Of a DNA stretch of 64,000 nt, positions 29,234-61,768 are shown one piece after another. The stretch lies in NCBI GenBank assembly GCA_951799425.1, contig OX637402.1, forward strand, positions 7,530,001 through 7,594,000, read 5' to 3'. Under the pieces are notes generated by a model, which had not been told where the DNA came from, did no database searches, and was given only the letters and a program-made list of their open reading frames with translations. The stretch's first letter is position 1; every line of letters begins with the position of its first letter. This DNA is from Ilex aquifolium. Lineage: Eukaryota > Streptophyta > Magnoliopsida > Aquifoliales > Aquifoliaceae. The position numbers and the translations under genes were made by a program.

Positions 29234-29488
29234 GCGTCCGGACGCATGAATTATAGTATAAAATCTTCTGGAGTTTGCGTCCGGACGGGGAAGAATAGGC
29301 TGAACTTACTGGAACACGCGTCCGGATGGTGATTTGTCATGCGTCTGGACGGGAAAGCTAACCGTTTCAAATTCAGAGTACGCGTCCGGACGGAAACACC
29401 CCATGCATCCGGACGCGTGTCATTCAAAGCTTATTAATGCCGGTAGTTGAGCCGCGTCCGGACGGAAACACCCCATGCGTCCGGACGC
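29234..29488. repeat. Palindrome cluster, core GCGTCCGGACGC, upstream of ORF3 of A
   Basis: Eight sites starting at 29234, 29277, 29318, 29341, 29382, 29405, 29454 and 29477; some have one substitution. The last six form three pairs, each exactly 23 bp apart, the spacing seen in the LTR. The final pair ends 12 bp before a TATA box. Confidence 0.95.
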
Positions 29489-29499
29489 GTGTGCGAATC

Positions 29500-29508
29500 T
29501 ATAAATAG
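29500..29508 (+). promoter_or_regulatory. Internal TATA box for ORF3 of element A
   Basis: TATAAATAG, a canonical plant TATA element, 12 bp after the last palindrome and 102 bp before the ORF3 ATG, which has a good context (ACAACCATGGCA). This suggests ORF3 has its own promoter rather than depending only on the LTR transcript. Confidence 0.7.
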
Positions 29509-29601
29509 AGGCCTTGTCAGTTAACTTGTTTTGCACGTTTCTAAACCGAATTTCAAAGAACTCCCACCCATTCCACTTCTCTCTTCTCCATTCTAACAAC
29601 C

Positions 29602-30678
29602 ATGGCACCACCTAGAGCCTCCACCACAAAGAGAGCCCGATTGAGCACCCAAGAAGAGGAGGACACCACATTTGACCCGATGCGTTTCCAAATACTAGAG
29701 GAGCGGGTAAGATTCGAGAAATACTACGCTTCCAAACCCTTTGTCTGTGAGAGGAAGATTGAACTCAAGGATTTCTCTCGATTAGGAATCCAAGAGATCA
29801 TCACATCTAGAGGGTGGGCCGAGTTTATGGGTAGAGATTGGCCTTGCATTCCCATCCTGGCAAGGGAGTTCTACAGCAACGCTGATGACCTCGGGAATGG
29901 TCAGCTGACCACCTATGTCCGAGGTAAGCACATCAGTGTAGATGCCACAACCATTGCCCAATTGACTGGAATGACTCAAGCCCGGGTGGCTAGCCCTGAA
30001 TACCCCCAGAATTTTGGTGGTGATGAGGTGGGTAGAGAGTTAATGGGTGATCAAGATTTTGTGTGGACGGACGGAGTGAAATTCCTTTAGTAGGGAGACT
30101 TGACCAATAAGTACAAGATTCTCAATCTGATTTCAGTCTCCAACATTTTCCCTTTGCTGAGGAATAATCACATATACCCTGACCGAGCCCGACTTCTGTA
30201 TGCCATAGGCACTGGCAAGACCATAGACCTCCCCTCCCTTATTTTCTCAAAAATGCGTAGGGTCATTGGTGACCCTAAAAAGCCATCTTTCCCATTTCCC
30301 GGTCTGGCTACCGCATTCTGTGAAAAGGCGGGGGTGGTGATTGACGCCACGATGGAGAAGGCAAAGAAGGTTGTTGCACTCAACTCCGGTTCTCTTCTAA
30401 AGAGTCGGAGTGTGGCGAGGCCAGTGGGGATGAGAAGCCAGCAGGGGGAGGCTGCAGCTGAGGGTGATATACCGGTAGAGGATTGGGATCAGTTCCTCAA
30501 TATTGATGAGGACTTTGAGATACCAGTGGATGAGGACACTGATCCCAGGACTGACAGACAGATTTTGTTTGAGCTGCTGAGAAGGCAGAGAGAGATAAGG
30601 AAGGAGATGAGGGAGTTAAGGGCGCAGATGAGGGGGCTAGGGCAGAGTTCTCAGGATCAGGCAGGCCCCTCATCTTAG
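29602..30678 (+). pseudogene. ORF3 of element A (putative plant transposon protein-like), two in-frame stops
   Basis: ATG at 29602; the frame runs to TAG TAG at 30088-30093 and continues in the same frame to TAG at 30676-30678, about 356 codons. The N-terminus is basic (MAPPRASTTKRARLS). The middle (about residues 60-230) has the layout of the putative plant transposon protein family found in plant Ty3/gypsy elements: a RGW/F region, LAREFYSN, then VRGKHISVD and an IAQLTGM helix. The C-terminus is acidic, then Arg/Glu-rich and possibly coiled-coil. It corresponds to the ORFs at 45454-48499 and 60241-61427. No signal peptide or membrane segment is evident, so a viral-type envelope role is not supported. 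Function unknown. The double stop is the pattern expected from C-to-T change at two Gln codons. Confidence 0.8.
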
Positions 30679-32548
30679 GATGATTTCTTCTAGGTCCCGG
30701 TGTTTTGAATTTCTTTCGGTTATTCTTCCAGTTTTATGTAGAAATCAAAGCCTATTTTGGGTAGTTTTTGTTAGGCTTGATTTCTTTTATCTTTTGAATA
30801 TGCATTGTACTCGAATTCTCATTATTATATAAAATGCATATTTTGTTTGGTGTGTTATCAAATATCTAAATAACATTGTTATGAATAAGTTGATACCACA
30901 TAGTTGAAATAATTTACTCAACTTTAAATTTGCAACTGTTTAAGCATCACAGAGAACTTTATTCTATATTTTTGTATCTCATATCATGTTCTTATAAAAA
31001 CTCACAATTTGTGCACTTTAGACTTTACCAAGTTGAAAATTTGCTAGGTAGTTTACCTTGAGGACTTGAAACATATAGTGGAGATGCATAAAAAACCCTA
31101 GTGAGTTTTGATCCAATCTTTCTTGGAGGATTATTTACATTTACTCAATAAAAAAAAAAAAATTTATTCAGCTAATCTCCTTCAATAATTTCATTATTTT
31201 TGTTTTGGTTAACACCAATATTGTAAATGATTGTTTGACTTTGAATTATTTGCATGAGAAGTGTGTTATCAAAAGCTCTTGAGATATGATTTTAGGCCAT
31301 CTTTGTCATTATTTGAGCCTAAACCTAATTCTTTGAATATTATTATCCCTAGAAGCCATGATTGAGCCTTTAAAGCAAAATTTTATTTCTTATACCCAAC
31401 ATATAATAACCAAGCCAATGAAAAAAAAATAAAATAATATCTTTTACCCTTGGTTATCCTGAGATTGAACTTTTATTGTTTATGTAATTTGGGAGATGTT
31501 GGTTAAGAAAAGAAAAAAAAAAGAGAGTTTTACATACTTGTGAATATTTGCATTAGATGTCTTGCTAAAAAAAAAAAAAAAGGGGGTTAAAAGAAAAAAA
31601 GAAAAAAAGAAAGACAATATGTCTAGCTGTGAAAAAAAAAAAAAAGAGAAAAAAAAATAGCAAGCATGTGTTTGAAAAAAAAAAAATATGAGCAAGTGAT
31701 GTAAATTGTGCTTCTAAAGGATGGACAATGAAAGGCTATGGAAAGAAGTTTGGTTGTGTAATGTACATGTTCTCTCGGGATAGTCTTTTGAATTCCTGAA
31801 TATCCTTTGTTTCAAAACCCTAATCCCAAGGCCCCATTACAACCTTAAATAAAGACCTATCTGATCTCAAGAGTGTATTGAGGATGCATGACTTGTGTGA
31901 ATAAGGAGGAGAATAATGATTATTTGTTTATTGTGTGTTGATTTCCTTTCATGAGATTATGTCAAATCCTATTTCTTTTTTATTACATTCTTCGTAATGG
32001 AACATGTGAGCACTATTTTGTGTTGATTTAAATATCCTCCACTCACATGTGATACTTGAGTGTATAATTACTATAATCTGAGAGAATTATTCATGAGTGA
32101 ATTATCTAGTGAGATTTGACATTGAGACGAATAGTTGATAGTTGTAGAGGTGATTACTGGATAAATTACTGACTTGGTATAGTTAACTCACACTACACAC
32201 GAGTTTATATGAGAATATGATAAGTGCATACAGTTATATACCGCATAGTTCTATATGTTGTTTTGCATGTGCTTATAAAAAAGTGTGCGTCTTAGAATTT
32301 CAATATTGTGGTAGCAACTTATATTATAAAGTTGTTATTCAGATGTTTGATTACAGGGTGATGTTTGTGGGTATCATCTCTGGAAACCCTCACGAGACTA
32401 TACTCGTCCACTAGGAGAAACCTAGGGGTTTAAAGGCTTGTTGCATATGCTAAATGCAATCGTGAGTCCTACGAAAAGTGGTTTTGTTTTATTGCACTTT
32501 GTTTTGTTTCCTAAAATCAGTGGTTTTATTTATTTATTGATATTTGTC
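30679..32548 (+). other. Conserved noncoding block of element A (3' of ORF3)
   Basis: About 1.9 kb without a gene. Blocks align with reversed text in G (about 49300-50815), F (54482-55585) and H (about 62000-63590): for example the TTTACATTTACTCAA stretch near 31130, the CCAAGCCAATGAAAA stretch near 31410, the AAGGCCCCATTA stretch near 31828 and ACACACGAGTTT near 32195. It contains many A-runs (31140-31700). In A it lies after ORF3; in G and H it lies before ORF3. Confidence 0.8.
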
Positions 32549-32583: not shown

Positions 32584-32785
32584 TGATTAAGGCCGAATAA
32601 TCACAATTATTATTAGGAAAGATTGATATTTTAATTGTAAAAGTGTGATAAATATAAGAGTTTATTCAAGTTTGGGTGTTATGCTATTAAATGTTGATTT
32701 GTGATAATTTGCAGGTCAAAAGCATAATTTTGGGGTCAAATTATGGAAAGACCAAGCGTAGCTCAAAGGAAAACACACTGGATAA

Positions 32786-32904
32786 CGCGTCCGGACGGAA
32801 GAAGAGTACGCGTCCGGACGCGATTGGCAGAAAGTTGATAAACGGAGGAAGGACCATTCTGAAAGTTGCGTCCGGACGGTTGAGAGAGGTGCGTCCGGAC
32901 GCGT
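32786..32904. repeat. Palindrome cluster, core GCGTCCGGACGC, in 3' LTR of A
   Basis: The same four sites and 23-bp pairs as in the 5' LTR; no difference by eye. Confidence 0.95.
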
Positions 32905-32965
32905 GTCAAGCTTCTGCTGCCGAATTTAGAATCCTAATGGGATGCAATCTCTTTCGAATGTACTT

Positions 32966-32973
32966 TATAAATA
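32966..32973 (+). promoter_or_regulatory. TATA box of the A 3' LTR
   Basis: TATAAATA, the copy of 3458-3465. Confidence 0.7.
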
Positions 32974-33654
32974 CAAACCTAGGACCTTGTAAAAGGGGAG
33001 TTCTTTTTCATTAATCTGTTTCGAGATCCTTTTACCATGTCTGGCTAGAAGGCTAAGCTAGGGCTAGAGGAAAACCTCTCGACGGAGTACGGTATTTTTA
33101 TTGACTCTTGTACTTAAGGATTTATGTTATTGTGTTAATTTAATCCCTAATCTTTTAGCAAAGTGTTTATGTTGTATAAACTCTTGAGTTGTTGTGCCAC
33201 GTACATCGATTGCTTGATTTTCCCTGCGTGTAAATCACTGGTTATTCCACGCTGGAAGGATTAACATTATTTCATAAAATAATATGATTGAATGATTATT
33301 CAGGTTCCTGGTAGTCTTTTGATTATAACCTTTGGACTTATCACTTGATTTGTTAATCAGATTAACTGACATTTAATTCCTCTTTCAAGTCAAGCTTTGA
33401 GTCTTTAACTATTATTGTATGAAGTTGAGAGGGAGTACCTGATGCTCTAGTATTTCTTTTATTACTGTTTTAATTACAAAAATCACTTTTCTCCAGTCAA
33501 CAATTTTCCAAACAAATCTTTTTCCTTTCAAATTACTTTTATTGTTCGTGTGATTGCTTCTTGTTACAATTCCTTGTGGGATCGACCTCGGATTTCCGAG
33601 ATTATATTACTCTGCTTAACCTGCGCTTGGGTTTACACTTTTAAAGTTGAAGCA

Positions 33655-33659
33655 ACCAG
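33655..33659. other. TSD (ACCAG), right copy, of element A
   Basis: Perfect match to 3071-3075. Confidence 0.93.
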
Positions 33660-33702
33660 CATATTCTGGAGAAAAAATTGGAAAAGCTTGGACCAAGGCA
33701 AG

Positions 33703-33998
33703 AACGTTCGAATGCCAATCAACGTTCGAACGTTACCTTAAATCATGTGAAGACCAGACTACTGAGACATGGCATGTTGCAACCAAGAATACTTGAGTAC
33801 CACGTTCAAACGCCAATCAACGTTCGAACGTCCCCTGGAATCGTTTGAAGACCAGACTGCTACATGGAGTGTGGAAATGAACTTCACATAAGACTACTGG
33901 CCACTTGAGTGGGAAGGTCAGACCCCATCAGTACGTTCGAACGCCCATTAAGCAAAGGCAGAGACAACGTTTGAATGCCAAACAACGTTCGAACGTTG
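33703..33998. repeat. Palindrome cluster, core AACGTTCGAACGTT, in E
   Basis: Seven sites. Perfect copies are 33721-33734 (14 bp), 33820-33831 and 33983-33998 (16 bp); imperfect partners lie 18 bp upstream of each (centres near 33709, 33807 and 33972); a single site is at 33933-33943. The cluster lies 100-390 bp upstream of a TATA box. Confidence 0.93.
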
Positions 33999-34091
33999 TC
34001 CCTAGACTGGCTACAGAATGGTTGACTTTTCACTAGGACTTGGGCGGCCATGCACTATTCCTTCACCCCCTCTTGTTTCCTCCTCCTTGCC

Positions 34092-34099
34092 TATAAATA
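34092..34099 (+). promoter_or_regulatory. TATA box of E
   Basis: TATAAATA downstream of the palindrome cluster, the arrangement seen in the A LTR. Confidence 0.65.
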
Positions 34100-34747
34100 C
34101 TCCCATTATGGGAGAGTAAGGGGGGCTTGGAGAGTTGTTCTGGAGATTAGTTTGACATTTAAACCAACATCTCTTAGCTTGCTATAAAGTTAGTCTTAGG
34201 CTTAAACTTTCAATTACATGCATAGAGGAAGATAGATCTTTTGGTTGAGGATCACCCTCCAAAAGTGACTAGCCTTCTTCTACTTTCAATATTTGTTATT
34301 CCATGTTTAGAAGGAAGATAGATCATCTTTTGGTTGCGGATCACCCTCCAAAAATGACTAGCTTTCTTCTACTTTCAATATATGTTTCATTCACTTCCAT
34401 TGCTTGAGCTTCTTTCTTCCCTTAGAGGAGTGAAACTCTTCCACTTTTCTAGAGCTTCGCCAAAGCCGTGAAGGGTGGAACGTGATTCACTCATTCTTTG
34501 TCGAAGATCGGCTCCTTGTTTATTGTGCTTTACCTTGTGAACTCTCTACTTGGAGGAATGAGCATCACTCACTTTTTTAGCTTTGCCAAAGCCATGAAGA
34601 GTGATTAGTTTCTCATTCACTCTTTAGTAAGAGGTAATGGACATGTATAAATTATCTAGAAGTTATATCTGTGCAATTTCGATTATGCTTAGTGCTTTAT
34701 ATTCCCCATGCTTATTGAATGATTGATTGCATCTAGCAAAGCAAAGG

Positions 34748-36907: not shown

Positions 36908-36920
36908 TTCTTCCCTCCTT
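36908..36920 (-). other. Polypurine tract of element C
   Basis: AAGGAGGGAAGAA on the minus strand, directly before the 3' LTR; matches the AAGGGGGGAAGAA tract of B. Confidence 0.8.
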
Positions 36921-36960
36921 GAAAGAATTTCGTCCCCGAAATTCACACACACGTGCACAT

Positions 36961-38040: not shown

Positions 38041-38123
38041 TGATTGATCGGAAAACGTTGTTGTATCCTAACCTCGTAACATCACCCTCACCCTCAATGT
38101 GTGTATGTGGCTTATAGTGATGG

Positions 38124-38142
38124 GGGAGTGTCACTCTCCCTC
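38124..38142 (-). other. U5 hairpin of the solo LTR in C
   Basis: GGGAG/CTCCC stem around GTGTCACT near the U5 end; counterparts at 46564-46584, 56973-56994 and 58405-58424. Confidence 0.55.
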
Positions 38143-39414: not shown

Positions 39415-39467
39415 CTACCGGTAGCTCGGCGGTAGCAGCAACTCTAGAAGCAATCGGCTACCGGTAG
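39415..39467. repeat. Palindrome pair CTACCGGTAG in the solo LTR in C
   Basis: Perfect copies at 39415-39424 and 39458-39467, 43 bp apart, with a decayed GGCGGTAGC-like remnant between. Core and spacing equal those in the unrelated B LTRs. Confidence 0.9.
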
Positions 39468-42230: not shown

Positions 42231-42355
42231 CCCATAAGCGAGAGTAGAAATGTACCCTGAATAACCGACTGATCTACTGGCTTAGTTTGAGGCATAATGG
42301 CGTAGACACGCCCCTAGGTCCCTGAAGTCCCGACTTGTGAGCCATGTCCTCGACG

Positions 42356-43825: not shown

Positions 43826-43837
43826 GCTCTGATACCA
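43826..43837 (-). other. Primer-binding site copy 1 of element C
   Basis: TGGTATCAGAGC on the minus strand (tRNA-iMet type), adjoining an LTR-end remnant. Confidence 0.85.
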
Positions 43838-43840
43838 AGC

Positions 43841-43913: not shown

Positions 43914-43925
43914 GCTCTGATACCA
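43914..43925 (-). other. Primer-binding site copy 2 of element C
   Basis: TGGTATCAGAGC (minus), 3 bp from the C 5' LTR; the conventionally placed copy. Confidence 0.85.
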
Positions 43926-44805: not shown

Positions 44806-44892
44806 AAAACCTTCCGGAAGGTTTTGGCAGTGAAAAAGATATCAATGGCAAAACCTTCTGGAAGGTTTTTACCCAAACCTTCCGGAAGGTTT
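44806..44892. repeat. Palindrome cluster, core CCTTCCGGAAGG, in G LTR
   Basis: 44806-44825 is a perfect 20-bp palindrome (AAAACCTTCCGGAAGGTTTT); 44850-44869 has one mismatch; 44875-44892 is a perfect 18-bp palindrome. Further sites may have been lost with the truncation. Confidence 0.95.
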
Positions 44893-45138
44893 TCAACCAA
44901 TTTGCATTTTCTTGGCTTCTTTACCCTCCAAACCATCCTTTAAGCTACCCCCTTCTTCTTCATTGACTTCGACCACTTTAACGGGGGTTTAACTCATGTC
45001 ATTTACATCATTTCACCTGTATTCACACAAAACTCCATAAATACGAAGATTAAACACATTTCTCCTTAATTTCATGACAAAAGCAAGTGTAGAGGGGCAT
45101 ATTAGCATACAATATATGTCATGTTTTTGTGCTAATCA
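44806..45138 (-). repeat. 3' LTR of element G, truncated U3 part
   Basis: Begins TGATTAGCAC at 45138 next to the polypurine tract; 333 bp remain before the junction with C. Holds the palindrome cluster. Confidence 0.8.
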
Positions 45139-45453: not shown

Positions 45454-46487
45454 TCAGTCCTCCTCCTCGTCAAAAACGTCCTCGTCCTCAGTCTCGGACT
45501 CGGATTCCTCCTCGTCCTCGTCATCATCCTCTCCCACCTCCAAAGTCACGGAGGGCACAGAAGCAGCAGTAGAGGGTCCAGCTGAAGGCTGTGGAGGTGC
45601 TAGTGGTCCTCCAGGGACAGGCTCACCTGGGAAAGTATGCTCAAAAAGTCTCGTAACCATGACCATCAAGCTGTGCATAGTGGACTCTAAAGTATCCAAG
45701 TGCTGAGGAATGGTACGGGCCCGGGCTGGTGTAGGTGTTGGTAGTGGGGGTGCTGCAGAAGAAGGCCCGACCTCAAAATGCTCTGGCTCCCTAGCCCTAG
45801 CTCTTCCCCCTCCAGTCCTGGCAGCTATCTTTAACCTGCTAGACTTGCTAATCGCTCCAGTCTCTGGGGGGAGTAGGGTATCATGAGCATAGTACTTGAC
45901 CTTGGCCAGGTCACATAATTTGGTGATGAGGCTGCCAAAGGGGAGGTTTGCCTTCGGCTTTGCAGCCTGGGCAAACTCCCGCATCTCTAACCAAATCACA
46001 TAAGCCGCATCAATGGCAACCCCCGTCATAAAAGCCTGAAGCAAAGCCAACTTCTCTAAGTTTGGGCTCTTCTCTGAACCCTGGGGCATCAAGTTATAAT
46101 GAAGAAGCTTGTTCATGATTCCATACGAATGCTTGAGGCTCCTAACCAACGTTGTTCCTGTGAACGTGGCCGGGTCCTCATAGGTGAGGGCCACATAGTC
46201 TCTGAGAGTCCTACCCCCATCCATATTATGTGGGTAGACTGGGGTGGTAAGGGGAGGTCTCTCATAGCCCATCGCCTTGGCTATTGTGTCAAGAGTCATC
46301 TCGAATGTCTTACCCCTCACATTATTTCTCAACCCCTGCCCGTTATCTCCAAACACCAACAATTTTTGAAAGAATTCGTGACACAAGCTCAAGTTATACC
46401 CTTTTACTTCCTCAAACCACAATTTCAAACCCCGTTGTTCGATAATTTTTGCAACCTCATTTGTAGGTCCCAAAGAAGTCTTATCGA

Positions 46488-46492
46488 CATAC
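46488..46492. other. TSD left copy (CATAC) of the solo LTR in G
   Basis: Identical to 48325-48329. Confidence 0.92.
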
Positions 46493-48324
46493 TGCTTAAT
46501 CAAAATCGTTGTTGTTCCTAACCTCCTAATATCATTCCTCAATATGTATATGATGTAGGTGCGAAGGGAGTGTCACTCTCCCTTGGGATGAATTGGGAAA
46601 TAGGGCAATGAAATGGTGGATGGAATGAAATGTATGAAATGGAGAGTGCGAAATGGACAAAAGTGCTCCCCAAGCACAATGAGTCTTTTGCTTGTCGTGT
46701 TTTACTTGGAAAAGTATTCCAAGATCGTCTCCTCAGGGAAGGAAGGGAATTGTGTGAAGGTGATTTTGTAAAAATAAAAAGTGTAAAATCTTGTAGTTGG
46801 TTTTGGTGAGTTTTGTTCTTAATGAAAATGCAGGAAAACAATTGTTGGCTAATCCGAAGGATTCACTCCAATGGGAATCCCAAATCAACTCGAAGCCTTC
46901 CTCGAATAGAGCTTAGATGAACGATTGATTCGTGGGAAGCTAGGGATGAAATGGAGGTGAGGATCCAAGCATAACCCGTGACCAGGCCTACGGGATATCA
47001 AAGACTCACAACCGCATCCACTCTCACCCCAGTCAAACTGAACCATCGTACTCTGAGAGGAGGAATGAAAATGAGTTGAAGTGGCACACCCAAGAGGAGT
47101 TCTCCCTTGGATAACCAACTTAAAATCTAGCTACTCATACTTGAAGGAAAGACAATGAGGTAATGTAAAGTGGCATAATGAAGAAAGTAAACATTGAACT
47201 TAACTTAAAGCAAGAAATCTTAAGCTATGAAGAAAAATATTCAATACCCATTTTAAAATAAGAAATGAAGAAAACTTGGAAGCAACAATGGTGAAATCTA
47301 AAATGTAGCATTGAACTTGAAATGTACTTGAAGTAAATGACATTAAAGACATTAAATGAAGATTACAACAGTCTTACAATAAATTACAAGTGAAATGATG
47401 GAAGAAAATACAAAAACATAAGCTTTCTATCTACTATTCATCATCTTCTTCCTTGGACTTTCTAAGCTTAGGTAGCCACCCTCTAAAATCTTGTGTGAAT
47501 GCTGAGTATATGGAGTGTGAGAGCTCTGCATTTTCCTCCATGAGGGTCCCCCTAGGTGTGTGATAAGCCTCACATCCATAGGAGGCTGAGTTGATGCATT
47601 GCACAAGCTAAGACAAGCCTAGCCTGCAACTCTCCTGGCTGCCCCCTTCTCTCCCATCCCCATTAATGTCATTGCCTTCAAAGTCTTCCACAAGGGTGTA
47701 GGAATCATGTAAATTTGTAAGGGATGTCAGGGGACAAGTGGGGGAATCAATGGTGGGACCCCCAAGCAAGTGGAGAATGGTTTGCAGGTGTTTTGGGCTG
47801 TTCAGCAGACAGTACCGGCACTGTGTACCGGTACCCCGAACTCCAGAGGCAGAACCGTACCAGTACTGCGTACCGGTACTGTTTCTGCTGCGGACCAGTT
47901 TTCGTAGAATTATCATAACTTTTGATCCAACCGTCCGATTGAGCTGAAATTTTAACACAATATAGAAGACATCCATGTTTTTCACTTTTTTAGATTCGAA
48001 GCGGATCATGGTCAAAAATGAGGAAAACTGAGGTACTACTACAAAATGGTGTGGGTGTTGATGCCTATGTTACCAAACACCAATACCTCCTTGATTTCTT
48101 TCACTTTTAAGCCTCCAAATTCTCATGCAATGTGTTCATCTCTTCACCACACATCCACACATAGTTGCAAGGTTCTAAAATCCATCATTTATGCTATAAT
48201 TACTTGCAACATCGAAAATTCAACATTATTGACAATTTTGGCTAACTCTAAGTACTTAAATGCAAAAGTTGAGTTAAAATGCATGTAATGAGGCCTTCAA
48301 ATATGCAATATTATGTGCTCATCA
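46493..48324 (-). mobile_element. Solo Athila-type LTR inside ORF3 of G
   Basis: 1832 bp, TGATGAGCAC to TTGATTAAGCA on the minus strand, with a perfect CATAC TSD. It belongs to the GTACCGGTAC class (sites at 47812-47879). U5 hairpin at 46564-46584. Short ORFs inside have no family. Confidence 0.93.
47812..47879. repeat. Palindrome cluster, core GTACCGGTAC, in the solo LTR in G
   Basis: Four sites starting at 47812 (GTACCGGCAC), 47825, 47857 (GTACCAGTAC) and 47870. They form two pairs, each 13 bp centre to centre, the pairs 45 bp apart. In each pair one site is perfect and the other has one change. Confidence 0.93.
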
Positions 48325-48329
48325 CATAC
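48325..48329. other. TSD right copy (CATAC) of the solo LTR in G
   Basis: Identical to 46488-46492; the bases are also part of the ORF3 coding sequence. Confidence 0.92.
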
Positions 48330-48499
48330 CTCTCACATGTTACCCCTTTTTTCTCCATTCTTTGTGTTCGGTTGTCATGCCTCACCTTGGTCCTTCTCTC
48401 TTGTCTCTCTTGGCCACTTGGGCTCTCCCCGGCTCTCTTTCGAGAGCTCGAGCCTATGGGTGGAGGAGAGTCCGGGTCCGTTCTTTTGGTACGGGCCAT

Positions 48500-48884: not shown

Positions 48885-48960
48885 GCAAAACTTTCGAAGG
48901 TTTTGCTTACTGTCTAGGTCAAAAAATTCCAGTAGGCAAAACCTTCCGGAAGGTTTTGCC
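48885..48960. repeat. Palindromes upstream of ORF3 of G (core CCTTCCGGAAGG)
   Basis: 48935-48960 is a perfect 26-bp palindrome: GGCAAAACCTTCC followed by its exact inverted complement. A second, imperfect site (centre TTTCGAAGG) lies at 48885-48906. The core equals that of the G LTR. Confidence 0.93.
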
Positions 48961-49299
48961 TTTGCTGCAAAACCAATCCCTTTTTCAAAAATTCACATCC
49001 AATCCATCCTTTCTCAACTCCAACACATTTAAACACCTTTTCTAAAACCTCTAGCCTACCAGAGACTTCAACCACTCTTATGAACCACAATTGGTTGATC
49101 ATGCCCAAAGTCATTTCCGAAATTGTAACATGATTTTAGGTTTTGATGTTTTCAAAGTATAAGACATGGAATTCTAATTTAACTACCAAAATGAATACCC
49201 AAAATATGAAACATGAATTCAAATAGCAATGGTATTCCTAAAACTTATCAAATATCGAAAGTTGATCAATATTCCCCCATCCTTAAAGCATAGGGCTAC

Positions 49300-50815
49300 T
49301 TAACATGTCGTTCAACTGTCTGAACCAAGCACACATGAACATCATTATAGCCTTAAATACTAGTCTAAAGTATGCACCTACACATTCATTTTCAAACTCG
49401 TGTGTGTGTGGATTGGATAAGTAATTTGAGCATTTACGCAACAGAATTCACATTAGAATGGCTAGCCAACTTCAGCTTCAACGCAAAACTCACCAAAGGT
49501 CACTCTTAACAATGAAATACACTCTAGTTATCCTGGCATGCACTCCATGTGTACATGTGAGATAGAATATTGTGCACAAAACAAAGTGTGCTCACATGTA
49601 ATCCAAAAATGAAATTCATGTATGAAAATGAAGCGACTTTGGCATAATCTCATGAAAAGAATGCTAGGTCATTAGGTAGCAAGACTAACTCATCATTTTC
49701 TTTAAAATTATGCATCTCCCATGCTTCTCGAGATCATTTAGGATTTCAAAGGTTATAATGGGGCCTTGGGGCGATATTGAGGCAAAAGAAACGAAGGGCA
49801 TGGGATAACAAAGAGGGTTGTTCCAAGTGAAAGATTTTTATTTCAGAAACAGTTCCCTTTTCATGGGATTTCATTCTTACACCATCACAACACTCTTTGC
49901 TTCTTTTCTTTCTTTTCCTTAACATTTTCCTTTTCTTTTGATCATTCTTTTCTTCTTCTCACCCTCTTTTCTCCTTTTCTTGGATTTTCATTCTTTTTCC
50001 GTTCAACTCTTCGAGTTTCAACATCATACATCCCTTTGTTTGAGTTTCCACACCATACTTCCTTCTCTTTTACAATCACTCATATTCAGTACTAGGAACA
50101 ACCAAGGTAAGGAAAATATTTATCATTTTCATTGGCTTGGTCAAATTTGTGGCATAAAAACGAATTTCAATTAAGGCTCAATCACAGCACTAGGGATAAT
50201 ATTTCACAAGAAAAAGGCAAAGGCTCGAAATATTCAAAGATGGTCTAAGATCACTTCTAGGTAAGCATAGGGGAGCATTGTACATTTCAAGACCAGTCAA
50301 TAAACTACATAAATGCTCCTAACCGAAACAAGCATAATGAGACTATTGAAAAAATTTGAACTTTAAGAATGGTTTCTTGAGTAAATGTAAGTCCCCTCAA
50401 AAAATGATTGGCACTAAAGCTCTCATTGGTTCTTACTCATTTCCACTATTCATGTCAAGCCTCAAATATAAATCTAGTCCGTAAATTGCTAAAATTACAC
50501 AACAAGGAGCACATACGGTTGAGTTCAAAAGCATATACATATGTGATACTCACGCATAGGATTAACTTCTATAATATGCTCATGTGCTCGGGGTTCAAAA
50601 CAACAAACAACCTATCAACTAACCCAAGCACTCTTAATAAGAGAATACATATCAACATTCAGATATTTTTCACAAAAATGTTCAAAATTTTCACATAATT
50701 TGCACTATTGTGAACAAAAATCTGTATGTATGTAAAAGGTGAATGTTCACCACAAAAATTGGTATTATCCACAAAAATTCCAAAACATTGGTGTATCATA
50801 CAAATGGTGCACCTC
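49300..50815 (-). other. Conserved noncoding block of element G
   Basis: About 1.5 kb without a gene. Homologous to A 30679-32548, F 54482-55585 and H 62000-63590. It contains pyrimidine-rich plus-strand text at 49895-50090 matching the A-rich tract of A. Here it precedes ORF3. The 49000-49300 stretch beyond it holds nothing I recognise. Confidence 0.8.
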
Positions 50816-51053: not shown

Positions 51054-54000
51054 TACCCTTGCACCAAGTCCGGATACACCTGATCAGTCAAATCCTCCTC
51101 CACTCCTTGTCCCTCAAAACCCTAGAAAAATAGCTTAAGTCTTTGGCCATTGACCTTGAATGTCTGGCCATTCTCGAGGTTTGTGACTTCTACAGCTCCA
51201 TTAGGGTAGGCCACCTTGAGAAGATAGGGGTCGTCCCAACGGGATTGGAGTTTGCCTTAGAAAATCGAGAGACGAGAATTGTATAAGAGCACTTTTTGGC
51301 CGGACTCGAATGACTTCCTCACAATGGATTTGTCATGAAAGATCTTAGTCCGCTCTTTTGAAATTTTGGAGCTCTCATACGCATCTCTTCGAATCTCTTC
51401 CAATTCATTCAATTCTAGCTTTCTATGTTCTCCAGCCATCCTCAATTTGAAATTCAAATTCTTTATGGCCCAATAGGTCTTGTATTCCATCTCAACTGGA
51501 AAATGGCAAGCCTTTTCATAAACGAGCCGGAAGGGAGACATGCCTAAGACAGTCTTGTAGGCGATGCGATAAGCCCATAGGGCATCAATCAGTCTGCCTG
51601 ACCAATCTTTTCTATTTGGGTTAACCGTCTTTTCTAAGATATTCTTGATCTCCCTGTTGGCCAACTCGGCTTGACCATTGGTTTGTGGGTGGTATGCGGT
51701 GGATACCTTATCTGTGACACCATATTTGTTTATCAAAGATGCAAATGGTCTGTTGTAAAAATGTGATCCATCGTCACTTATCATTGCACGAGGCATCCCA
51801 AACCTCGAGAAGATGTTCTCTTTCAAGAATTTGACCACGACCCGGTGGTCATTAGTCTTAGTTGGGATAGCCTCCACCCATTTGGACACGTAGTCCACAA
51901 CTAGTAGAATGTATAGATAGCCAAACGACATAGGGAAAGGACCCATGAAGTTGATGCCCCAACAATCAAATATTTCTATAACAAGTACAGGGGAGAGGGG
52001 CATCACGTTCCTTCGTGTCACACTACCCAAATGTTGACATCTATCACATTCCTTACAAAATGAAAAACAATCTTTTATTAGAAAGGGCCAGTAAAAACCT
52101 GACTATAGGATTTTTGCCGAAGTTTTCTTCCCAGAGAAGTATCCACCCCATGCCTCTAAATGGCAAAATGTAAGGACTTCCCGCTGTTCATTCTCCGGTA
52201 CACATCTCCGCATGACTTGGTCAGGGTAGTACTTGAACAGATACGGGTTGTTGAAGTAGAAGTACTTCACATCCGCCATAAATCTCCTTCGATCCTCCGG
52301 GCTCCACTGCGGTGGTATTTGTCCTGTTGCAAGGTAATTACATATGTCAGCATACCAAGGACACACAGAATGAATTGAAAGTAAATTTTCATCAGGGAAG
52401 AAATTTGGGATAGGAATGTGCTCATCGGCCTCTTGCACCACCAGTCGAGATAAATGGTCCGCCACCACATTCTCCACTCTCTTCTTGTCTTTGATTGTCA
52501 GATTGAATTCTTGGAGTAGGAGGATCCACCTGATGAGTCTTGGTTTGGCATCCTGCTTAGACAACAAATACTTCAAAACAGAGTAATCAGTATAGACTAC
52601 TATCGGTGACCCAATGATGTAAGAACGGAATTTATCTAATGCAAATACTACCGCTAGCAGCTCCTTTTATATGGTAGTGTAATTCATTTGGGCTTCATTG
52701 AGCGTTTTGCTAGCATAGTATATTACATAAGGTCTATTTTCCTCTCTTTGATCGAGCACTGCGCTGACCGCGTAATCACTCGCGTCGCACATCAGCTCAA
52801 ATGGTGAATCCCACTTGGGTGATCGCATAATTGGAGGTGTGGTAAGCATACTTTTAAGTTTTGTAAAAGATGCCTCACAACTATCCGATCACTCAAATGG
52901 GACATCTTTAGACAATAAATTGATCAAAGGTCGTGCCAATACACTAAATTTTTTAATGAATTGACGGTAAAAACCCGCATGGTCCAGAAACGACCTGATA
53001 TCCTTGACGACTTTCGGTGTAGGGAGGTTGCAGATGGCCTCCACCTTTGATTTATCAACCTCAATCCCCTTCATCGAGACGATATGCCCAAGCACAATTC
53101 ATTGCATCACCATGAAGTGACACTTATCCCAATTCAAGACTAAGCTATTCTCTTCACATCTAGCAAGAACTTTCTCCAAATTCTCTAAGCATCCACTGAA
53201 AGAATCCCTAAAGACCAAGAAGTCATCCATAAACACCTCTATAATCTTTTCCACCATATCACTAAAGATCCCCATCATGCATCGTTGAAAGGTTCCCGGG
53301 GCATTACATAGCCCAAAAGGCATGCGACGGTAAGCAAAGGTACCGTAGGGACAAGTGAAGGTGGTCTTCTCCTGATCTTTCAATGCAATCTCGATTTGAT
53401 TGTAGCTGGAGTATCCATCTAAGAAGCAATAGAATAGATGCCCCGCTACTCGTTCCAACACTTGGTCGAGGAAAGGCAATGGGAAGTGGTCTTTTCTTGT
53501 GCACAGGTTGAGTTTCCGGTAATCAATACAAACTCTCCACCCGGTGATCACCCTTGTTGGAATAAAATCATTATCCTCATTTGCCACCACAGTGACTCCC
53601 GAATTCTTGGGTACTACTTGCGTGGGGCTAACCCACTTACTATCAGCAATCGAAAAAATGATGCCCACGTCAAGTAGTTTTAGCACCTCGTCCCTCACCA
53701 CATCTTTCATAATTGGATTCAATCTTCTTTGTGGTTGTCGTGATGGCTTGGAGTCCTCTTCGAGATAGATACGGTGTGTTCAAATGATGGGGCTTATCCC
53801 CTTGATGTCCGCAATTGTCCAACCAATCGCCCCCTTATGCCTCCTCAACACCTCAAAGAGCTCTTCTTCTTTCTTTGCATCCAATGTTGAGCTAATCACC
53901 ACCGGAAATGTCTCATCTTCCCCAATATATGCATACTTCAAATGGGAAGGTAATTGCTTCAATTCCAAATTGGTATTTTGCTCATTTGATGGGAAAATCT

Positions 54001-54481
54001 TCTTGTCTTGGTGTGGGAGCTTCTCAAATGTAGGGATCCACTTTTCTACCCCTTTCAAACTCTCTAATTCCTCTTGCTCATCAACTTCTTCTAGATCAAC
54101 ATTCTCCTCTTCTTTCAACTTTAACATGCCCAAAAGTTCCAAGTGTTCTTCTGCCAAGGTGTCAATCCTATTGACTTCATGCACCTCCTCATCATCCTCC
54201 GGTTGCTTGGACAAGTTGAACACGTTGAGATCAATAGTCATGTTCCCAAATGCTAGCTTCATAAGACTGTTCCTACAATTAATCACAGCATTAGATGTGG
54301 CAAGAAAAGGTCTTCCACGTATTACAGGGATTTGGGAGCTAAGATTTGCAACCGGGTGAGTGTCAAGCACAATAAAATCAATGGAAAAGTAAAATTTATC
54401 GACTTGCACTAAAACATCCTTAACTACTCCCCTTGATGTTCGGACACTACGGTCCGCCAGTTGAAACATGATTAATCTCAT
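51054..54481 (-). pseudogene. pol: Pol of element G (5'-truncated, many lesions)
   Basis: Starts in mid-protease (FQLADRSV) after the catalytic motif and ends with the conserved VNGQRLK tail at the stop 51054-51056. Visible parts: protease end ([15 protein letters not shown]), RT with FMDDF at about 53216-53230, RNase H ([14 protein letters not shown]), integrase zinc finger, and a core whose first motif reads WGINFMGPF, where the catalytic Asp is replaced by Asn. Lesions include stops near 53778, 53096, 52887, 52665, 52101, 51254 and 51125 and altered zinc-finger residues (GGYFS for GGHFS). Several stops stand where Trp or Gln codons are expected. The domain order and sequence are close to element A. 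Confidence 0.9.
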
Positions 54482-56899: not shown

Positions 56900-58238
56900 T
56901 GCTTGATTAAAAACCTTGTTGTTCCTAAACTCTTAAGATTCTGCCTCAATGTGTATGTATGATGTGTGTATGAAGGGGAGTGTCACTCTCCCTTGGTATG
57001 ATGTCAAAAGAAAGGGCAACGAAATGGTGGATGAATGAAATGAAATGAAATGCGTGTGTGAACAAAAGTGCTCCCCAAGCGCAAGGAGTCTTTTGCGTGT
57101 CGTGTTTTACTTGGAAAAGTATTTCAAGGTCATCTCCTCTGGGAAGGAAGGGAATTGTGTGAAGGTGATTTTGTAAAAAGGGAAAAGTGTACAATTTTGT
57201 AGTTGGTTTTGGTGAGTTTTGTTCTTAATGAAAATACAAGAAAACAAGTGTTGGCTAATCCGAAGGATTCACTCCAATGAGGATGTCAATCCAACTCAAA
57301 GCCTTCCTCCAATGATGCATAGATGAACGATTGATTCGTGGGAAGCTAGAGACGAAATGGAGGTGAGGATCCAAGCATAACCCGTGACCAGGCCTATGGG
57401 ATATCAAAGACTCACAACCGTATCCACTCTCAACCCAGTCAAACCGAACCACTATACACCGAGTGGAGGAAAAAAGAAGAGTTGAAATGGAATCCTCACG
57501 GGGAGGTCTCCCTTGGATTAACCAACTAAAATTCTAGCTACTCATGGTAAAAGGAAAGGCATGCATAATGTTAAGAGACATGTAGAAGAAATGAAGATTA
57601 AAACTTAACTCAATGCAAGAAAACTTAAACTAAGAAGAAAAATATTCAAAACCCATTTCAAAGCTTGAAAATGAAGAACTCAAAACAACAATGGTAGAAT
57701 CTAGAATGCATAACTAAACTTGAAATAAATGACATTAAAGACATTAAATGAAGATTACAAGAGTCTTACAATAAATTACAAGTGAAAGGATGGAAGAAAA
57801 TGCAAAAATCTAAGTTTCTATTACACTATTCATCATCTTCTTCCTTGGACTACTCCTAAGCTTAGGTTGCCACACCCTTCAATGCTTGGTGAATGCTGAG
57901 TATATGGAGTGTGAGAGCTCTCCTTTTCGTCCATGAGGGTTCCCCTAGGTGTGTGATAAGCCTCCCACCCATAGGAGGCTGAGTTGATGCATTGCACAGG
58001 CTAAGACAAGCCTAGCCTGTAACTCTCCTGGCTACCCCCTTCTCTCCAATCCTCATTAATTCCCTTGCCTCCAAAGTCTTGAAATTGTGTAAGGATGGCA
58101 TGGTTATGTGTAGAATATGTCAGGGTAGGTGTGGGAGAAGTGTAGGTGGGCCCCCCAAAAAGTTGGAGAAGACTTGCAGGAGTTCTGGGAATTTTGAGTT
58201 TCAAAAGAGCGTACCGGTACTCAATACCGGTACCCCGA
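56900..58238 (-). repeat. 5' LTR of element F, truncated in U3
   Basis: Ends (minus) GGTTTTTAATCAAGCA next to the primer site. The U3 end is interrupted at 58239 by element X. U5 hairpin at 56973-56994; palindromes at 58211-58233. Confidence 0.85.
58211..58233. repeat. Palindrome pair GTACCGGTAC in F LTR
   Basis: 58211-58220 perfect and 58224-58233 with one change (ATACCGGTAC), 13 bp apart; any further pair was cut off by element X. Confidence 0.9.
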
Positions 58239-58324
58239 TGTAACTCCCCGCATTTTCTTTTATATATGTATATAGATATATAGTAAGTATTTGTTGTAAA
58301 AATGTGGATATGTGATGAGGTATG
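58239..58324 (+). mobile_element. Fragment X of another LTR
   Basis: 86 bp starting TGTAACTCCCCGC, the style of a Tekay-type LTR end, between the F LTR and H. AT-rich with a TATATATG run. H appears to have inserted into it. Confidence 0.5.
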
Positions 58325-59964
58325 TGATTGAGCAAAAACAGTCCTATTCCTAACCCCTAAAATACTACCCCCCAAGGTGTATGTGTGATGTATATTCAAC
58401 CGGGAAGGGAGGTTACGCTCCCTTGGAATAGTGTGAAAAGAAAGGGCAATAGGAAAGGAAATAGGTCAGTGGGAATGTGATAGGTGAATGCACAAAAATG
58501 CTCCCCAATCGCAAGGAGACTTTCGTGGGTCGTCTTTTACTTGGTGGTATTCCAAGGTCGTTTCCACGGGGAAGGAAGTAAACCAATTTGAAAGTGATTT
58601 TGGGCAAAGAAAGTGTAAAATTCTTGTTGTTGGAAATTGTTTGATGAAGTGTGTTTTGGTAAAATTAGAATGAGAGAACAAGCGTTGGCAATTCCAAGGG
58701 TTCCCTCCAATGGGTATACTATCTCAACTCAACTCACACCTCCGATTGAGCAAGAATGAACGGTTGATTCACGGAAAGCCGAGGATGATGTTGGTGAGTG
58801 CCTAAGCATAAACCGTGACTAGGCCTACGGATTATCAAAGATTCACCGAATCATCCACCTTCAATCCGGTCAAACCGAACCATGGGACTCTAAAGGGAGG
58901 GTGTAGAAAGAGTTGAAACGATATACCCAAATGAGGATTCCCCTTGGTCTTGCCAACAAAAAGGGCTTAGCTACTCATACTTGAAATAGAAATGACAATG
59001 TAAATATAATGCATTGTATGGATATGGAGTTTTGAAGTAACTAAGTGCAAGAAATCATAGACTAGAAGTGAATGAAATGAAAATCTATTTTATATCTATA
59101 AACATGAATACTTTGAAAGCATTAATGGTAGAACTTAAATGGGAGCATTAAACTAGCAATGACATAAGGGAAAATGACATTAATGACATTCATTGAAGAT
59201 ATAAAGGTTCCTACCCTTGATTACAAGACAATGCAGTAAAAGAAATGCAAAAATCATAACTTTCTCTCTCTAAAACTACTATTCATCATCTTCTACGCCC
59301 AGAGCTTTTCTCTCTATCTGCCTCTCTCTGCTATGGAAGAATGCTGATCATTGGAGAGCTCTCTCCCTCCAAAACCGTGCCTGGTCTGCTCCTGTAGCTC
59401 CCTGAAGTGACCCCCATCAGTAGGGTGTAGCCTGGATGACCTAGACAAGGGAGTGCAGAATTGGTCTGCACACACCCAGCTCCTCCTCTTCTCTCTCTCT
59501 TCCTTTAAGGCTGTAGCTCTAGAGTGCAGAGTAAGGTGTGGGCCTGATGAACAGTGTTGTGGGCGTGTCAGAGGAGTGTGGGGGCATCTATGGTGGGACC
59601 CTCGAAGTAGCTAAGCAGATCTGCAAACTCTGGGCTTATCAGGCAAATCGTACCGGTACTGAGTACCGGTACTTCGACTCCAGAATGTTTGGCGTACCGG
59701 TACTGAGTACCGGTACTGTTCTGCCTCCTTGTCTGAAACTTCTGATTCCTTTGCTCCTAAGCTGTCCCCAAGTTCTCTTTTCATCTCCTTTCATCCCAAG
59801 TGGTATGGGTGGGCCTTAACAAACCATAATTAGCTCCTTTCAACTGCAAACACAAATTTTTGACGTTAAGACTTCAATCATCATAACTCCTATCGTTTAA
59901 TCTTCAAAAACAAGTGAAATGAGCTGATTAGGACCTTAAAATATACAAAGTTTTGTGCTAATCA
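58325..59964 (-). repeat. 3' LTR of element H
   Basis: 1640 bp, TGATTAGCAC to GCTCAATCA on the minus strand. U5 hairpin at 58405-58424 (AAGGGAG/CTCCCTT stem with a different loop from its relatives). Confidence 0.85.
59650..59716. repeat. Palindrome cluster, core GTACCGGTAC, in H LTR
   Basis: Four perfect copies starting at 59650, 59663, 59694 and 59707: two pairs at 13-bp spacing, the pairs 44 bp apart. About 80 bp around them is nearly identical to 61622-61700 upstream of ORF3. Confidence 0.95.
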
Positions 59965-60002
59965 CACCCCCCAACTTAGGTTTTGCTAGTCCCTTAGCAA
60001 AA
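59965..60002 (-). other. Polypurine tract and stem-loop of element H
   Basis: Minus strand: TTTTGCTA/TAGCAAAA stem (59981-60002), then AAGTTGGGGGGTG abutting the LTR. Confidence 0.85.
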
Positions 60003-60240
60003 GATTCATTCCCCAGCACAACACAATGAAAATAGCACATATTCAATCCAAATCAATGATCATTCATTCAATCAATCAAAATGCAAGTAACAACATGAAA
60101 GTGAGTAAAATGGAATTGTGGGTTTATATTAATGTGAACGAAGTTGGAGTACAAAATGGAGTAGGTCATCAAAAAGAACAAAATAGCCTAATCTCCCCCC
60201 CCCCCAACTACACAAAATCCTATACTAGCACAAGAACTCC
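60003..60240 (-). other. Region between ORF3 stop and stem-loop of H
   Basis: Noncoding. Contains AGTTG followed by a G11 run on the minus strand (60195-60205), a further polypurine-like tract directly after ORF3. Confidence 0.55.
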
Positions 60241-61427
60241 TTACTCTCCATCACTCTCTTCCTCATAACCCTCTGATTCTTCCCCTTCCTCAGACTCCTC
60301 ATCATCTTCCACATCCTCATTCACCCTGGAGGTTGAAGGTGCAGTAGGAACTTCTGGGATGGGTCTCCCAGGGAATGTGTGCATGTACATCTCCTTCATC
60401 ATCACCATCATTCCCTGAACCGAGGCCTCAATCCCATGCACTGTCGTCTCTAGTGCATCATGTCTCTTAGGGACTGAGTGTGCTGAAACAGGCTTGAATG
60501 GCATGGTGAGTGCAGTTGGTACAACGTCCTCATCAGACTCAAGCTGAGCTCGCTCCCCACGACCCATAGCCCTCCTCTTTTGGCTACTGGCCCTACCTAT
60601 GGCCCTAGTCTCAGGTGGAGTGAGTTTTTCTGATGCGTAGCCCTTCACCTTAAAATGGTTACACAGTCGGGTAACCAAGCTCCCATACGACAGGTTAGTC
60701 AATGGCTTCTCTGGGATGGCAAAGTCTTTCATAACTTCCCAAATAACAAGGGCAAAATCGATTGTTTTGCCCAACACAACAGCATCCAGAATGGCCAGCT
60801 TTTCCAGGTTTGGTTTCTTTTCTGCAGCCCTTGGGAGTAGGTTATAATGAAGCAATTTGTTGAGAAGCCCATAAACATGCTTCAACCCACCACTATGAAC
60901 CACTCCCTTGAATTCAGCCGGATCCTCATACATCAAATCGACATACTCCGCCTTAGTCTTAGCTCTTCCCATGTTGTAGGGATAGACAGGTGGGGAAGAT
61001 GGGGGTCTTTGATAGTCTCCAAGAAGGGTGGCTATGACATCAGGGGTCACTGTAAACACCTTTCCCCTAACATTCACTCTCAGAACTTCCCCAACAGCAA
61101 CCTCAACCAATTTCAATGAACGGTAGAACTCCCTCACCAATGCTAGGTTGTAACCCTCAACCTCCTTGAACCAGAAATGCATCCTATGTTCCTCAATGAT
61201 TTTCACAACGGGATGAATGGGGGAAAGGGAAATTTTATCCAAAAATCGTTCACAGGTCACGCCCTTACCATCGATCAATTGGAGACGGGCATCCCTCTTA
61301 GCCCTCTTCCTCTGCTCCTCTGGGTCCTCGACCCTTCACCTCCTCTCTTGCGGCTGGAGGAGACCTTGGCAAGAGGGGAACTGGGCTCTGGTCCTGGCCC
61401 TGGTCCTGCTCTCTTGGTGCGAACCAT
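60241..61427 (-). pseudogene. ORF3 of element H (putative plant transposon protein-like), one frameshift
   Basis: ATG at 61427 (MVRTKRAGPGP). A single phase change near 61335-61365 separates the basic N-terminus from the main frame, which is open from about 61370 to the stop at 60241. Main domain: KGVTCERF, FKEVEGYNLALVREFYRSL, NVRGKVFTVTPDVIATLLGDYQRP, GGLKHVYGLLNKLLHYNLLP, close to ORF3 of G and more distantly ORF3 of A. Ends in an acidic tail (DDEESEEGEESEGYEEE). No membrane segment. It lies 200 bp downstream of the palindromes and directly upstream of the 3' polypurine region. Confidence 0.82.
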
Positions 61428-61628
61428 TGAGATTATCCAATGAGGGTTGTCCAAAGAAGCCGAAATCAAAGGGGGTTTTATGGATTGAGAGGGAAGTGGA
61501 GAGGGTTTTGGGATCTTGGAGTGTTTTCGAGTGAGAGAGGAATAGGGCAGGAATAGAAATGGGGAAATGAAGGGTTTAACGAGGAGTTTAAATTAAAAGC
61601 CCTAAAAAATTTTCGTGTCAGACAAATC
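61428..61628 (-). promoter_or_regulatory. Leader and probable promoter region of ORF3 in H
   Basis: Minus strand near 61610-61565 reads AGGGCTTTTAATTTAAA, then AAACCCTTCATTTCC, matching the equivalent place in G. TTTTAATTTAAA is a possible weak TATA element. Confidence 0.4.
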
Positions 61629-61768
61629 GTACCGGTACTGAGTACCGGTACTTCGACTCCAGAAGGTTTGGCGTACCGGTACTGAATACCGGTACTTCGA
61701 CTCCAGAAGGTTTGGCGTACCGGTACTGAGTACCGGTACTATATGGTACCGGTACTGAATACCGGTAC
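61629..61768. repeat. Palindrome cluster, core GTACCGGTAC, upstream of ORF3 of H
   Basis: Eight sites starting at 61629, 61642, 61673, 61686, 61717, 61730, 61746 and 61759; the sites at 61686 and 61759 have one change (ATACCGGTAC). They form four pairs, every pair 13 bp centre to centre; the first three pairs repeat every 44 bp, as in the LTR. Confidence 0.95.

Follow-up and report, generated by a model that had tools for sequence, protein, structure and literature searches.

Element-specific palindromes shared by the LTR and the ORF3-upstream region in three Athila-type elements of Ilex aquifolium

Each of three Athila-type Ty3/gypsy elements (A, G and H) in a 64,000-nucleotide window of Ilex aquifolium contig OX637402.1 has a 10-bp palindrome in its LTR that recurs upstream of its ORF3. 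As the first-pass annotation had claimed, the core differs between the three elements (CGTCCGGACG in A, CTTCCGGAAG in G, GTACCGGTAC in H) and is matched at both sites in 3/3 elements readable at both (n = 3); its coordinates hold. Judging from these sequences, we consider it probable that each element has an LTR promoter and an ORF3 promoter that share element-specific palindromic sites for one dimeric DNA-binding factor. The matching in 3/3 elements, the retention of the A cores despite weak flanks, the linkage of array and ORF3, and an analogue in Sireviruses argue for this reading. Against it stand the H match, which is a 79-bp copy, the one perfect ORF3-upstream site in G, and the small number of elements.

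Ten-bp palindromes numbered 97 in 49,301 bases, against a mean of 49.3 and a maximum of 67 in 200 dinucleotide shuffles, and those centred on CCGG numbered 39 (shuffle mean 1.36, maximum 4). Clusters in which one 10-mer palindrome recurs within 300 bp numbered 11 (shuffle mean 0.025, maximum 1), which rules out a chance origin of the clusters. All 13 regions tested held a single core type out of five, with no second type at 0 or 1 mismatch in any of them; the five cores were chosen from these regions themselves, so that the result measures exclusivity and not presence. Outside the tested regions (42,554 bases, a count that, like the 49,301, leaves out copies 2–5 of a 4-kb tandem array), the five cores gave 0 exact matches and 5 at ≤1 mismatch.

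Element A has a gypsy-type gag–pol, a 5-bp target duplication and an additional 3' ORF with PF20167, as is characteristic of Athila (Table 1); for these elements as a group, the Athila name is our assumption, based on ORF3.

Table 1. Positions of LTRs, palindrome arrays and coding regions in the window.
Feature	Position	Strand	Remarks
A target duplication ACCAG	3071-3075 / 33656-33660		
A 5' LTR	3076..4147	+	99.25% identity to A 3' LTR over 1073 bp; boundaries from sequence
A 5' LTR array	3280..3393	+	4 CGTCCGGACG, spacing 23/58/23; TATAAATA at 3458
A primer-binding site (presumed)	4153..4169	+	GGCGCCGTTGCCGGGGA
A gag ORF	4296..5483	+	PF03732
A pol ORF	24864..28889	+	protease, RT, RNase H, integrase
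Internal polypurine-tract (PPT)-like site after A pol	29037..29070	+	CATTGAGGACAATG, then G-run
A ORF3-upstream array	29234..29488	+	8 CGTCCGGACG sites: 5 exact, 3 with one change
A TATA box CTATAAATA	29499..29507	+	TATAAATA begins 12 nt past last A core
A ORF3	29602..30678	+	PF20167 in two open stretches, stop codons between
Segment S in A	30943..32231	+	3' of ORF3
A 3' LTR	32584..33655	+	array 32788-32901; TATAAATA at 32966
Athila-type LTR B, right part	33661..34747	+	cut in two by A; putative boundaries and type
G 3' LTR remnant	44806..45138	-	first ~330 nt; CTTCCGGAAG sites at 44888-44811
G ORF3 main part	45454..46492	-	PF20167
Solo LTR within G ORF3	46493..48324	-	target duplication GTATG; own core GTACCGGTAC
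G ORF3 N-terminal part	48325..48499	-	MARTKR...SSSRKR
G ORF3-upstream 28-bp palindrome	48934..48961	-	AGGCAAAACCTTCCGGAAGGTTTTGCCT
Segment S in G	49370..50580	-	ahead of array and ORF3
G pol remnant	51125..54472	-	65% identity to A pol residues 195-1323
H 3' LTR array	59650..59717	-	4 GTACCGGTAC as two pairs (spacing 13 bp within a pair; pairs repeat at 44 bp)
H ORF3 main open stretch	60241..61335	-	PF20167; N-terminal ATG 61427 in another frame
H ORF3-upstream array	61629..61770	-	8 GTACCGGTAC sites: 6 exact, 2 with one change
Segment S in H	62191..63273	-	ahead of array and ORF3

Both A LTRs contain four exact cores, and every one of these is the ORF3-upstream core, with ±10 nt flanks averaging 0.33 identity (32 pairs). 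This exceeds all 1,000 random-position sets in the A interior (mean 0.254, maximum 0.328), making it likely that the two arrays share an old origin or that the site is longer than the core. Local duplication alone is insufficient for A, in which the 10-bp cores and the 23-bp spacing of their pairs persist between differing spacers, although the flanks are weakly alike. For G, made readable by recognizing the solo LTR inside its ORF3, the LTR remnant has sites at 44811, 44855 (one change) and 44879, and one exact site lies upstream of ORF3, where the palindrome is widened to 28 bp. Flanks in G averaged 0.51 identity over 9 pairs; with few sites to judge by, local duplication may account for the G match. 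The H LTR starts at 59964 and has four exact cores, and H 61618-61696 is 96% identical to LTR 59639-59717 over a 79-bp block. Direct copying of this block would also explain the H match, and we accept it for H.

Concerted evolution without coupling, in which the ORF3-upstream array is an LTR U3 segment copied inward by recombination or template switching and re-copied at times, seems to us improbable. The H block includes its spacers, as copying would predict, and the low but above-random A flank identity points the same way. A PPT-like site also lies ahead of the array in both LTR and interior (about 165 and 206 nt upstream in A), so that the A interior resembles a partial PPT–U3 copy. However, A cores kept amid different spacers would need selection after any old copy, and the array goes with ORF3 rather than with the internal PPT-like site, about 1.8 kb away in G and H. 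The PPT-like motif of the A interior is also present in G, H, the neighbouring element X and L001, a contig of a bacterial MAG that carries a plant-like Athila pol.

The linkage of array and ORF3 is apparent from segment S (~1.2 kb), which aligns between A 30943..32231 and G 50580-49370 (62% identity, E 1e-61) and between A 31065-32231 and H 63273-62191 (62%, E 2e-53). Array and ORF3 precede S in A and follow it in G and H; the array is thus linked to ORF3 and not to a fixed map position.

On G's side, X has a 5' LTR (58240-56910) with core GTACCGGTAC, not G's core. We take X to be a separate element that was joined to G at 54472/54473. We did not accept G as a single intact element with 56910-58240 as its 5' LTR: the LTR cores differ, and the post-pol segment joins the truncated pol at 54472/54473. 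If X were nevertheless G's own 5' LTR, G would be a core mismatch or a recombinant.

In the two-promoter reading, the LTR promoter would make genomic RNA and an internal promoter the ORF3 message, arrays of one element-specific palindromic site would lie upstream of both, and a single dimeric DNA-binding factor would act on both arrays, so that genomic RNA and ORF3 message would be switched on together. In A, G and H, the arrays begin 204, 250 and 248 nt from the LTR start, with positions spanning about 204–330 nt, and those upstream of ORF3 end 114, 435 and 202 nt before its ATG, respectively. Counting the tandem copies as one, TATAAATA is present at 7 places in the window; at 4 of them (A 5' LTR, A 3' LTR, A ORF3-upstream and B) it is correctly oriented and lies 12–96 nt downstream of an array. 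A TATAAATA-type box was absent after the ORF3-upstream arrays of G and H, and the patterns used gave none downstream of the LTR arrays of H, solo38 and solo46. By eye, A, G and H each have a CT-rich leader ahead of the ORF3 ATG. From these features we infer promoter activity, protein binding and co-regulation; selection, with copying (recent in H, perhaps old in A), would keep the two sites alike. As an alternative to an internal promoter, splice acceptor sites have been predicted for the Athila envelope-like gene (available part of PMC2829016).

Arrays of the same style occur in LTRs that have no readable ORF3 here, namely B, X, three solo LTRs and a chromovirus-like LTR. LTR B, whose left part probably lies at about 2934-3075, has a CGTTCGAACG array at 33705-33995 with pairs 18 bp apart and TATAAATA at 34092. 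Core CTACCGGTAG is common to two Athila-type LTRs and the chromovirus-like LTR. A search for further elements, with the pol protein against viral contigs, an ORF3 alignment and three DNA patterns, turned up nothing relevant; of 4 loci obtained in it, the three inspected (one whole, two in part) showed no retrotransposon. L001 ends about 716 bp past its internal PPT-like site, before any ORF3, and has six 10-bp palindromes, all different and none CCGG-centred.

A similar layout has been published for Sireviruses, Ty1/copia elements with palindromic RM boxes in the LTR and upstream of an envelope-like gene (Bousios et al. 2010, PMC2829016), so the kind of layout described here is already known, and its setting in Athila-type Ty3/gypsy elements is what is new. 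According to the available part of that paper, there are at least eight box copies per box-bearing element; 117/127 palindromic repeats are in the upper LTR half, ahead of the TATA box, beginning 200–400 bp past the PPT/LTR junction; and, in nine box-bearing Sireviruses with an envelope-like gene, 77/79 linker copies lie upstream of the gene. The boxes are CpG-rich and form CpG islands, and an internal promoter for the envelope-like gene was hypothesized (PMC2829016). Similarly, the palindromes here are conserved within an element, with several LTR copies (in G, three in the LTR remnant plus one), and the same box stands upstream of ORF3 in 3/3 elements. All three LTR arrays start within that 200–400 bp interval, with TATAAATA downstream in A and, by the patterns used, none in H. 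Unlike in Sireviruses, the pol order in A is that of Ty3/gypsy and not Ty1/copia, ORF3 carries PF20167, and the array stays with ORF3 across a changed gene order. The Sirevirus signature is CGG...CCG, whereas cores here centre on CCGG (the two triplets overlapping), or on TCGA in B. CpG observed/expected ratios were 1.0–1.5 in the arrays of A, B and H, about 0.4 in G, and 0.66–1.07 in the solo and chromovirus-like arrays, compared with 0.51 in the rest of the window. A TATA box is visible by the ORF3 array in A, whereas PMC2829016 was unable to identify a promoter. A Sirevirus-like, element-specific site shared by LTR and ORF3 in gypsy elements points to convergent or host-driven two-promoter control. 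Such sites bear on what the extra 3' ORF of plant endogenous retrovirus-like elements does and how it is expressed.

VANDAL elements are DNA transposons, unlike the LTR retrotransposons with gag and pol described here. VANC, the anti-silencing protein of VANDAL, which binds its motif and removes methylation, had been proposed as the closest precedent but proved more distant than the RM boxes; the domain found in ORF3 is PF20167. Like the present elements, VANDALs have element-specific short motifs repeated in noncoding regions, with related families differing in motif, but the VANC21 motif YAGTATTAY is non-palindromic and in a single orientation (available part of PMC5735166). VANC binding was demonstrated by ChIP-seq and EMSA (same source), whereas binding at the sites described here is predicted. 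Grande gene23, as cited in the available part of PMC7264820, is likewise an extra ORF between pol and the 3' LTR, nuclear and with its own promoter, but it is antisense, and that text mentions no palindrome arrays for it. The plant mobile domain proteins MAIN and MAIL1 with the DOWN motif also tie transposon-derived plant proteins to a promoter motif; they are, however, host genes, and the available text on the DOWN motif lacks the word palindrome (PMC7156037). Among the open-access papers listed in a literature search, judged by title and abstract start, none described Athila palindromes or an ORF3 promoter.

The first-pass annotation had read the matched sites as co-evolving targets of one element-specific factor, with the ORF3 product as suspect. 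Core identity against weak flanks in A, the TATA box by the A array and the array–ORF3 linkage support matched, element-specific sites as shared targets; ORF3 as an element-specific palindrome-binding dimer, a VANC-like autoregulator or anti-silencer co-evolving with its sites, seems to us doubtful. The array is linked to ORF3, and elements with different ORF3 proteins have different cores (identity is 45–46% between G and H, and A was matched by tblastn over part of the domain at 31%). ORF3 combines PF20167 with a putative NLS (RTKR...SSSRKR, by reading), a heptad-like stretch (also by reading) in which family members differ by a 7-residue indel, and an acidic tail, which would fit a dimeric nuclear regulator, and a sunflower Athila ORF with PF20167 is predicted to be nuclear (available part of PMC11728184). 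However, the array in the chromovirus-like LTR has the very core that two Athila-type LTRs carry, and tblastn found no ORF3 there, although its units are internally deleted and a parent with an extra ORF is possible. Moreover, 4/13 box-bearing Sireviruses have no envelope-like gene and six others have the gene but no boxes (available part of PMC2829016), and no solved relative of ORF3 was matched in the PDB by sequence. At least four proteins homologous to ORF3 came from sequence searches, the second of which scored the best 8,000 candidates; within the window, tblastn with the G and H ORF3 gave no loci beyond A, G and H, and none of these three copies is intact. In its fullest form, this reading would have ORF3 recognize its own palindrome at both the LTR and its own internal promoter in a private positive feedback or anti-silencing loop, with specificity changing as protein and core co-evolve and the array–ORF3 cassette moving as a unit, which we likewise think unlikely. 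Were ORF3 the factor, it would add to VANC a second kind of sequence-specific regulator encoded by plant elements themselves. A host transcription-factor family whose palindromic targets vary is no less likely a candidate than ORF3; a literature search on LOB-type host factors gave no usable motif evidence.

It is very unlikely, in our estimation, that the palindromes act as nucleic-acid structure (paired-palindrome hairpins, RNA dimerization, or small-RNA or methylation targets) rather than as protein-binding DNA. Many sites are paired and stem-capable, with spacings of 13, 18 or 23 bp, and three LTRs are broken at their arrays. By eye, one-base core changes are CpG transitions in 4/4 cases in A and G, as expected of methylated DNA there, and in 0/2 in H. 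By contrast, TATA boxes follow the arrays in A and B, and the chromovirus-like LTR has mostly single palindromes, 42–43 bp apart.

In each of three Athila-type elements (A, G and H; n = 3), the same 10-bp palindromic core occurs in the LTR and upstream of ORF3, an extra gene between pol and the 3' LTR. Each of 13 regions (LTR, ORF3-upstream and other LTRs) held a single core type, with no second type at 0 or 1 mismatch. Across the remaining 42,554 bases, the five cores had no exact copies and five one-mismatch matches, and shuffles excluded a chance origin of the palindrome clusters.

Judged by its repeat families, the window is plant-type DNA composed of nested LTR retrotransposons, presumably Athila-type and chromovirus-like. 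Element A (+) is a complete insertion bounded by a target duplication, with LTRs 99.25% identical to each other. It encodes gag, pol and an ORF3 with PF20167, and between its gag and pol lie chromovirus-like units of ~4 kb in tandem. Two partial elements are on the opposite strand: G (-) retains pol, ORF3 and, of its 3' LTR, the first ~330 nt, and H (-) the end of pol, ORF3 and the 3' LTR. The ORF3 of G is interrupted by a solo LTR, which is flanked by the target duplication GTATG. A post-pol segment, X, is joined to the truncated pol of G, an apparent chimera of two Athila-type elements formed by deletion or recombination. The X 5' LTR adjoining G has a core other than that of G, and X is probably, not certainly, a separate element fused to it. 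Outside the window, a plant-type Athila pol with 79% identity to that of A is encoded on contig L001 (1-3330); this contig is assigned to a Candidatus Nomurabacteria MAG and looks like plant contamination.

Positions of arrays and associated features (nt; window coordinates except for L001)
Feature	Element	Position	Remark
Target duplication ACCAG	A	3071-3075, 33656-33660	
Chromovirus-like LTR-interior units	inside A	5479-24236	4017-4060 bp each, head to tail, about five copies
Less deleted chromovirus-like copy		34748-44812	
Junction	X/G	54472/54473	
Segment S (about 1.2 kb)	A	30943-32231	after ORF3
Segment S	G	50580-49370	before array and ORF3
Segment S	H	63273-62191	before array and ORF3
CATTGAGGACAATG (or nearly) then G-run, after pol	A, G, H, X segment, L001	29037, 50845, 63620, 55595, 2580	
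CGTTCGAACG array and TATA box	LTR B	33705-34092	array upstream of TATA box
Arrays with paired palindromes		3280, 29235, 33705, 59650, 61629	
Apparent LTR truncation at array	solo1, G, X	2930, 44806-44812, 58240	boundaries inferred

The match between the two sites differs in kind among the elements. In H, the LTR and ORF3-upstream arrays have a common 79-bp block at 96% identity that takes in the spacers; the match is, judged from sequence, a direct copy. For G, the two places agree over 20 bp around their cores, and flanks (±10 nt) average 0.51 identity over 9 pairs, weak sites counted in. In A, the ORF3-upstream core equals all four LTR cores, with five of the eight ORF3-upstream sites exact and three carrying one change. 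Its flanks (±10 nt) are weakly alike: mean identity over 32 pairs was 0.33, low yet above all 1000 random-position sets from the interior of A (mean 0.254, maximum 0.328), and part of this excess arises because the palindrome exceeds ten bases and neighbouring cores extend into the flanks. A 23-bp pair spacing is found at both places in A, with different spacer letters. Our reading of A is an old copy or a common origin, after which selection probably kept the cores and the pair spacing alike. This maintained likeness, seen mostly in A, would be the chief indication that both sites are functional. Copying alone is a less likely rival.

Segment S, a conserved stretch near ORF3 (matches at E values of 1e-61 and 2e-53), follows ORF3 in A and precedes the array and ORF3 in G and H. 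Since the array lies directly upstream of ORF3 in both gene orders and its distance to an internal polypurine-tract-like site varies (165 nt in A, about 1.8 kb in G and H), it is, by this arrangement, tied to ORF3, not to map position. The post-pol CATTGAGGACAATG with its G-run is a polypurine-tract-like site additional to the TTGCTAGGGACTAGCAA ahead of the 3' LTR; it has an inverted repeat of its own and resembles TTGCTAGGGACTAGCAA in design.

When the tandem copies are counted once, the window has TATAAATA at 7 places, four of which (A 5' LTR, A 3' LTR, A ORF3-upstream and LTR B) are in the right orientation 12-96 nt downstream of an array. On the ORF3 side of A, the array is followed by CTATAAATAG, a CT-rich leader and the ATG at 29602. 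CT-rich leaders also precede ORF3 in G and H; no TATAAATA-type box was found in their ORF3-upstream stretches, which speaks against a uniform promoter. The array of LTR B, a further LTR split by A, has the same design, but with centre TCGA instead of CCGG.

The ORF3 of G, that of H and each of the two open pieces of A ORF3 contain PF20167 (Pfam); one A piece scored below the curated cut-off. None of the three copies is intact. The family alignment has a basic N-terminus (RTKR ... SSRKR), an acidic tail and a heptad-like stretch with, on our reading, a seven-residue difference between members. These features would fit a nuclear dimer and prove nothing on DNA binding. Chromovirus-like LTRs carry 5-6 CTACCGGTAG sites each, mostly 42-43 bp apart, and two Athila-type LTRs (solo1 and solo38) have this same core. 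Together with this shared core, the lack of an ORF3 match in the chromovirus-like units by tblastn with G and H ORF3 argues against ORF3 alone as the palindrome-binding factor, but the units are internally deleted and their parent could have carried an extra ORF. The LTRs of the less deleted copy lack these palindromes. A factor encoded by the elements would still be compatible with shared cores, because in the VANDAL system VANC6 motifs also occur on an unrelated element (PMC5735166). A host factor behind the arrays is the simpler reading.

Bousios et al. (2010) describe palindromic boxes in the LTRs of 13 Sirevirus elements, with motifs different in most elements; the boxes begin 200-400 bp past the PPT and lie ahead of the TATA (PMC2829016). 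Nine of the 13 carry an envelope-like gene with the same motif repeated upstream, six other envelope-containing Sireviruses are without boxes, and the authors propose an internal promoter and identify none (PMC2829016). The present arrays are alike in layout but differ in superfamily, ORF and core geometry; going by that paper, the layout was already known and ours is a variant in another superfamily. The first-pass annotation had named VANC anti-silencing proteins as the closest precedent; they stand as a possible analogy but not as the nearest relative, since the Sirevirus boxes have the matching layout.

Three LTRs seem truncated at palindrome arrays, as though breaks or insertions favoured the arrays. 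Spacing of paired palindromes is element-specific and rises in steps of five, from 13 bp in H through 18 bp in B to 23 bp in A, and several arrays have a recurrent ~43-45 bp repeat. CTGGA/TCCAG is 6.5 times denser in arrays than in the whole window, and some copies look like CpG-decayed cores. Relative to the element, 14 of 15 copies in Athila-type arrays are on one strand, and all four in the chromovirus-like array are on the opposite one.
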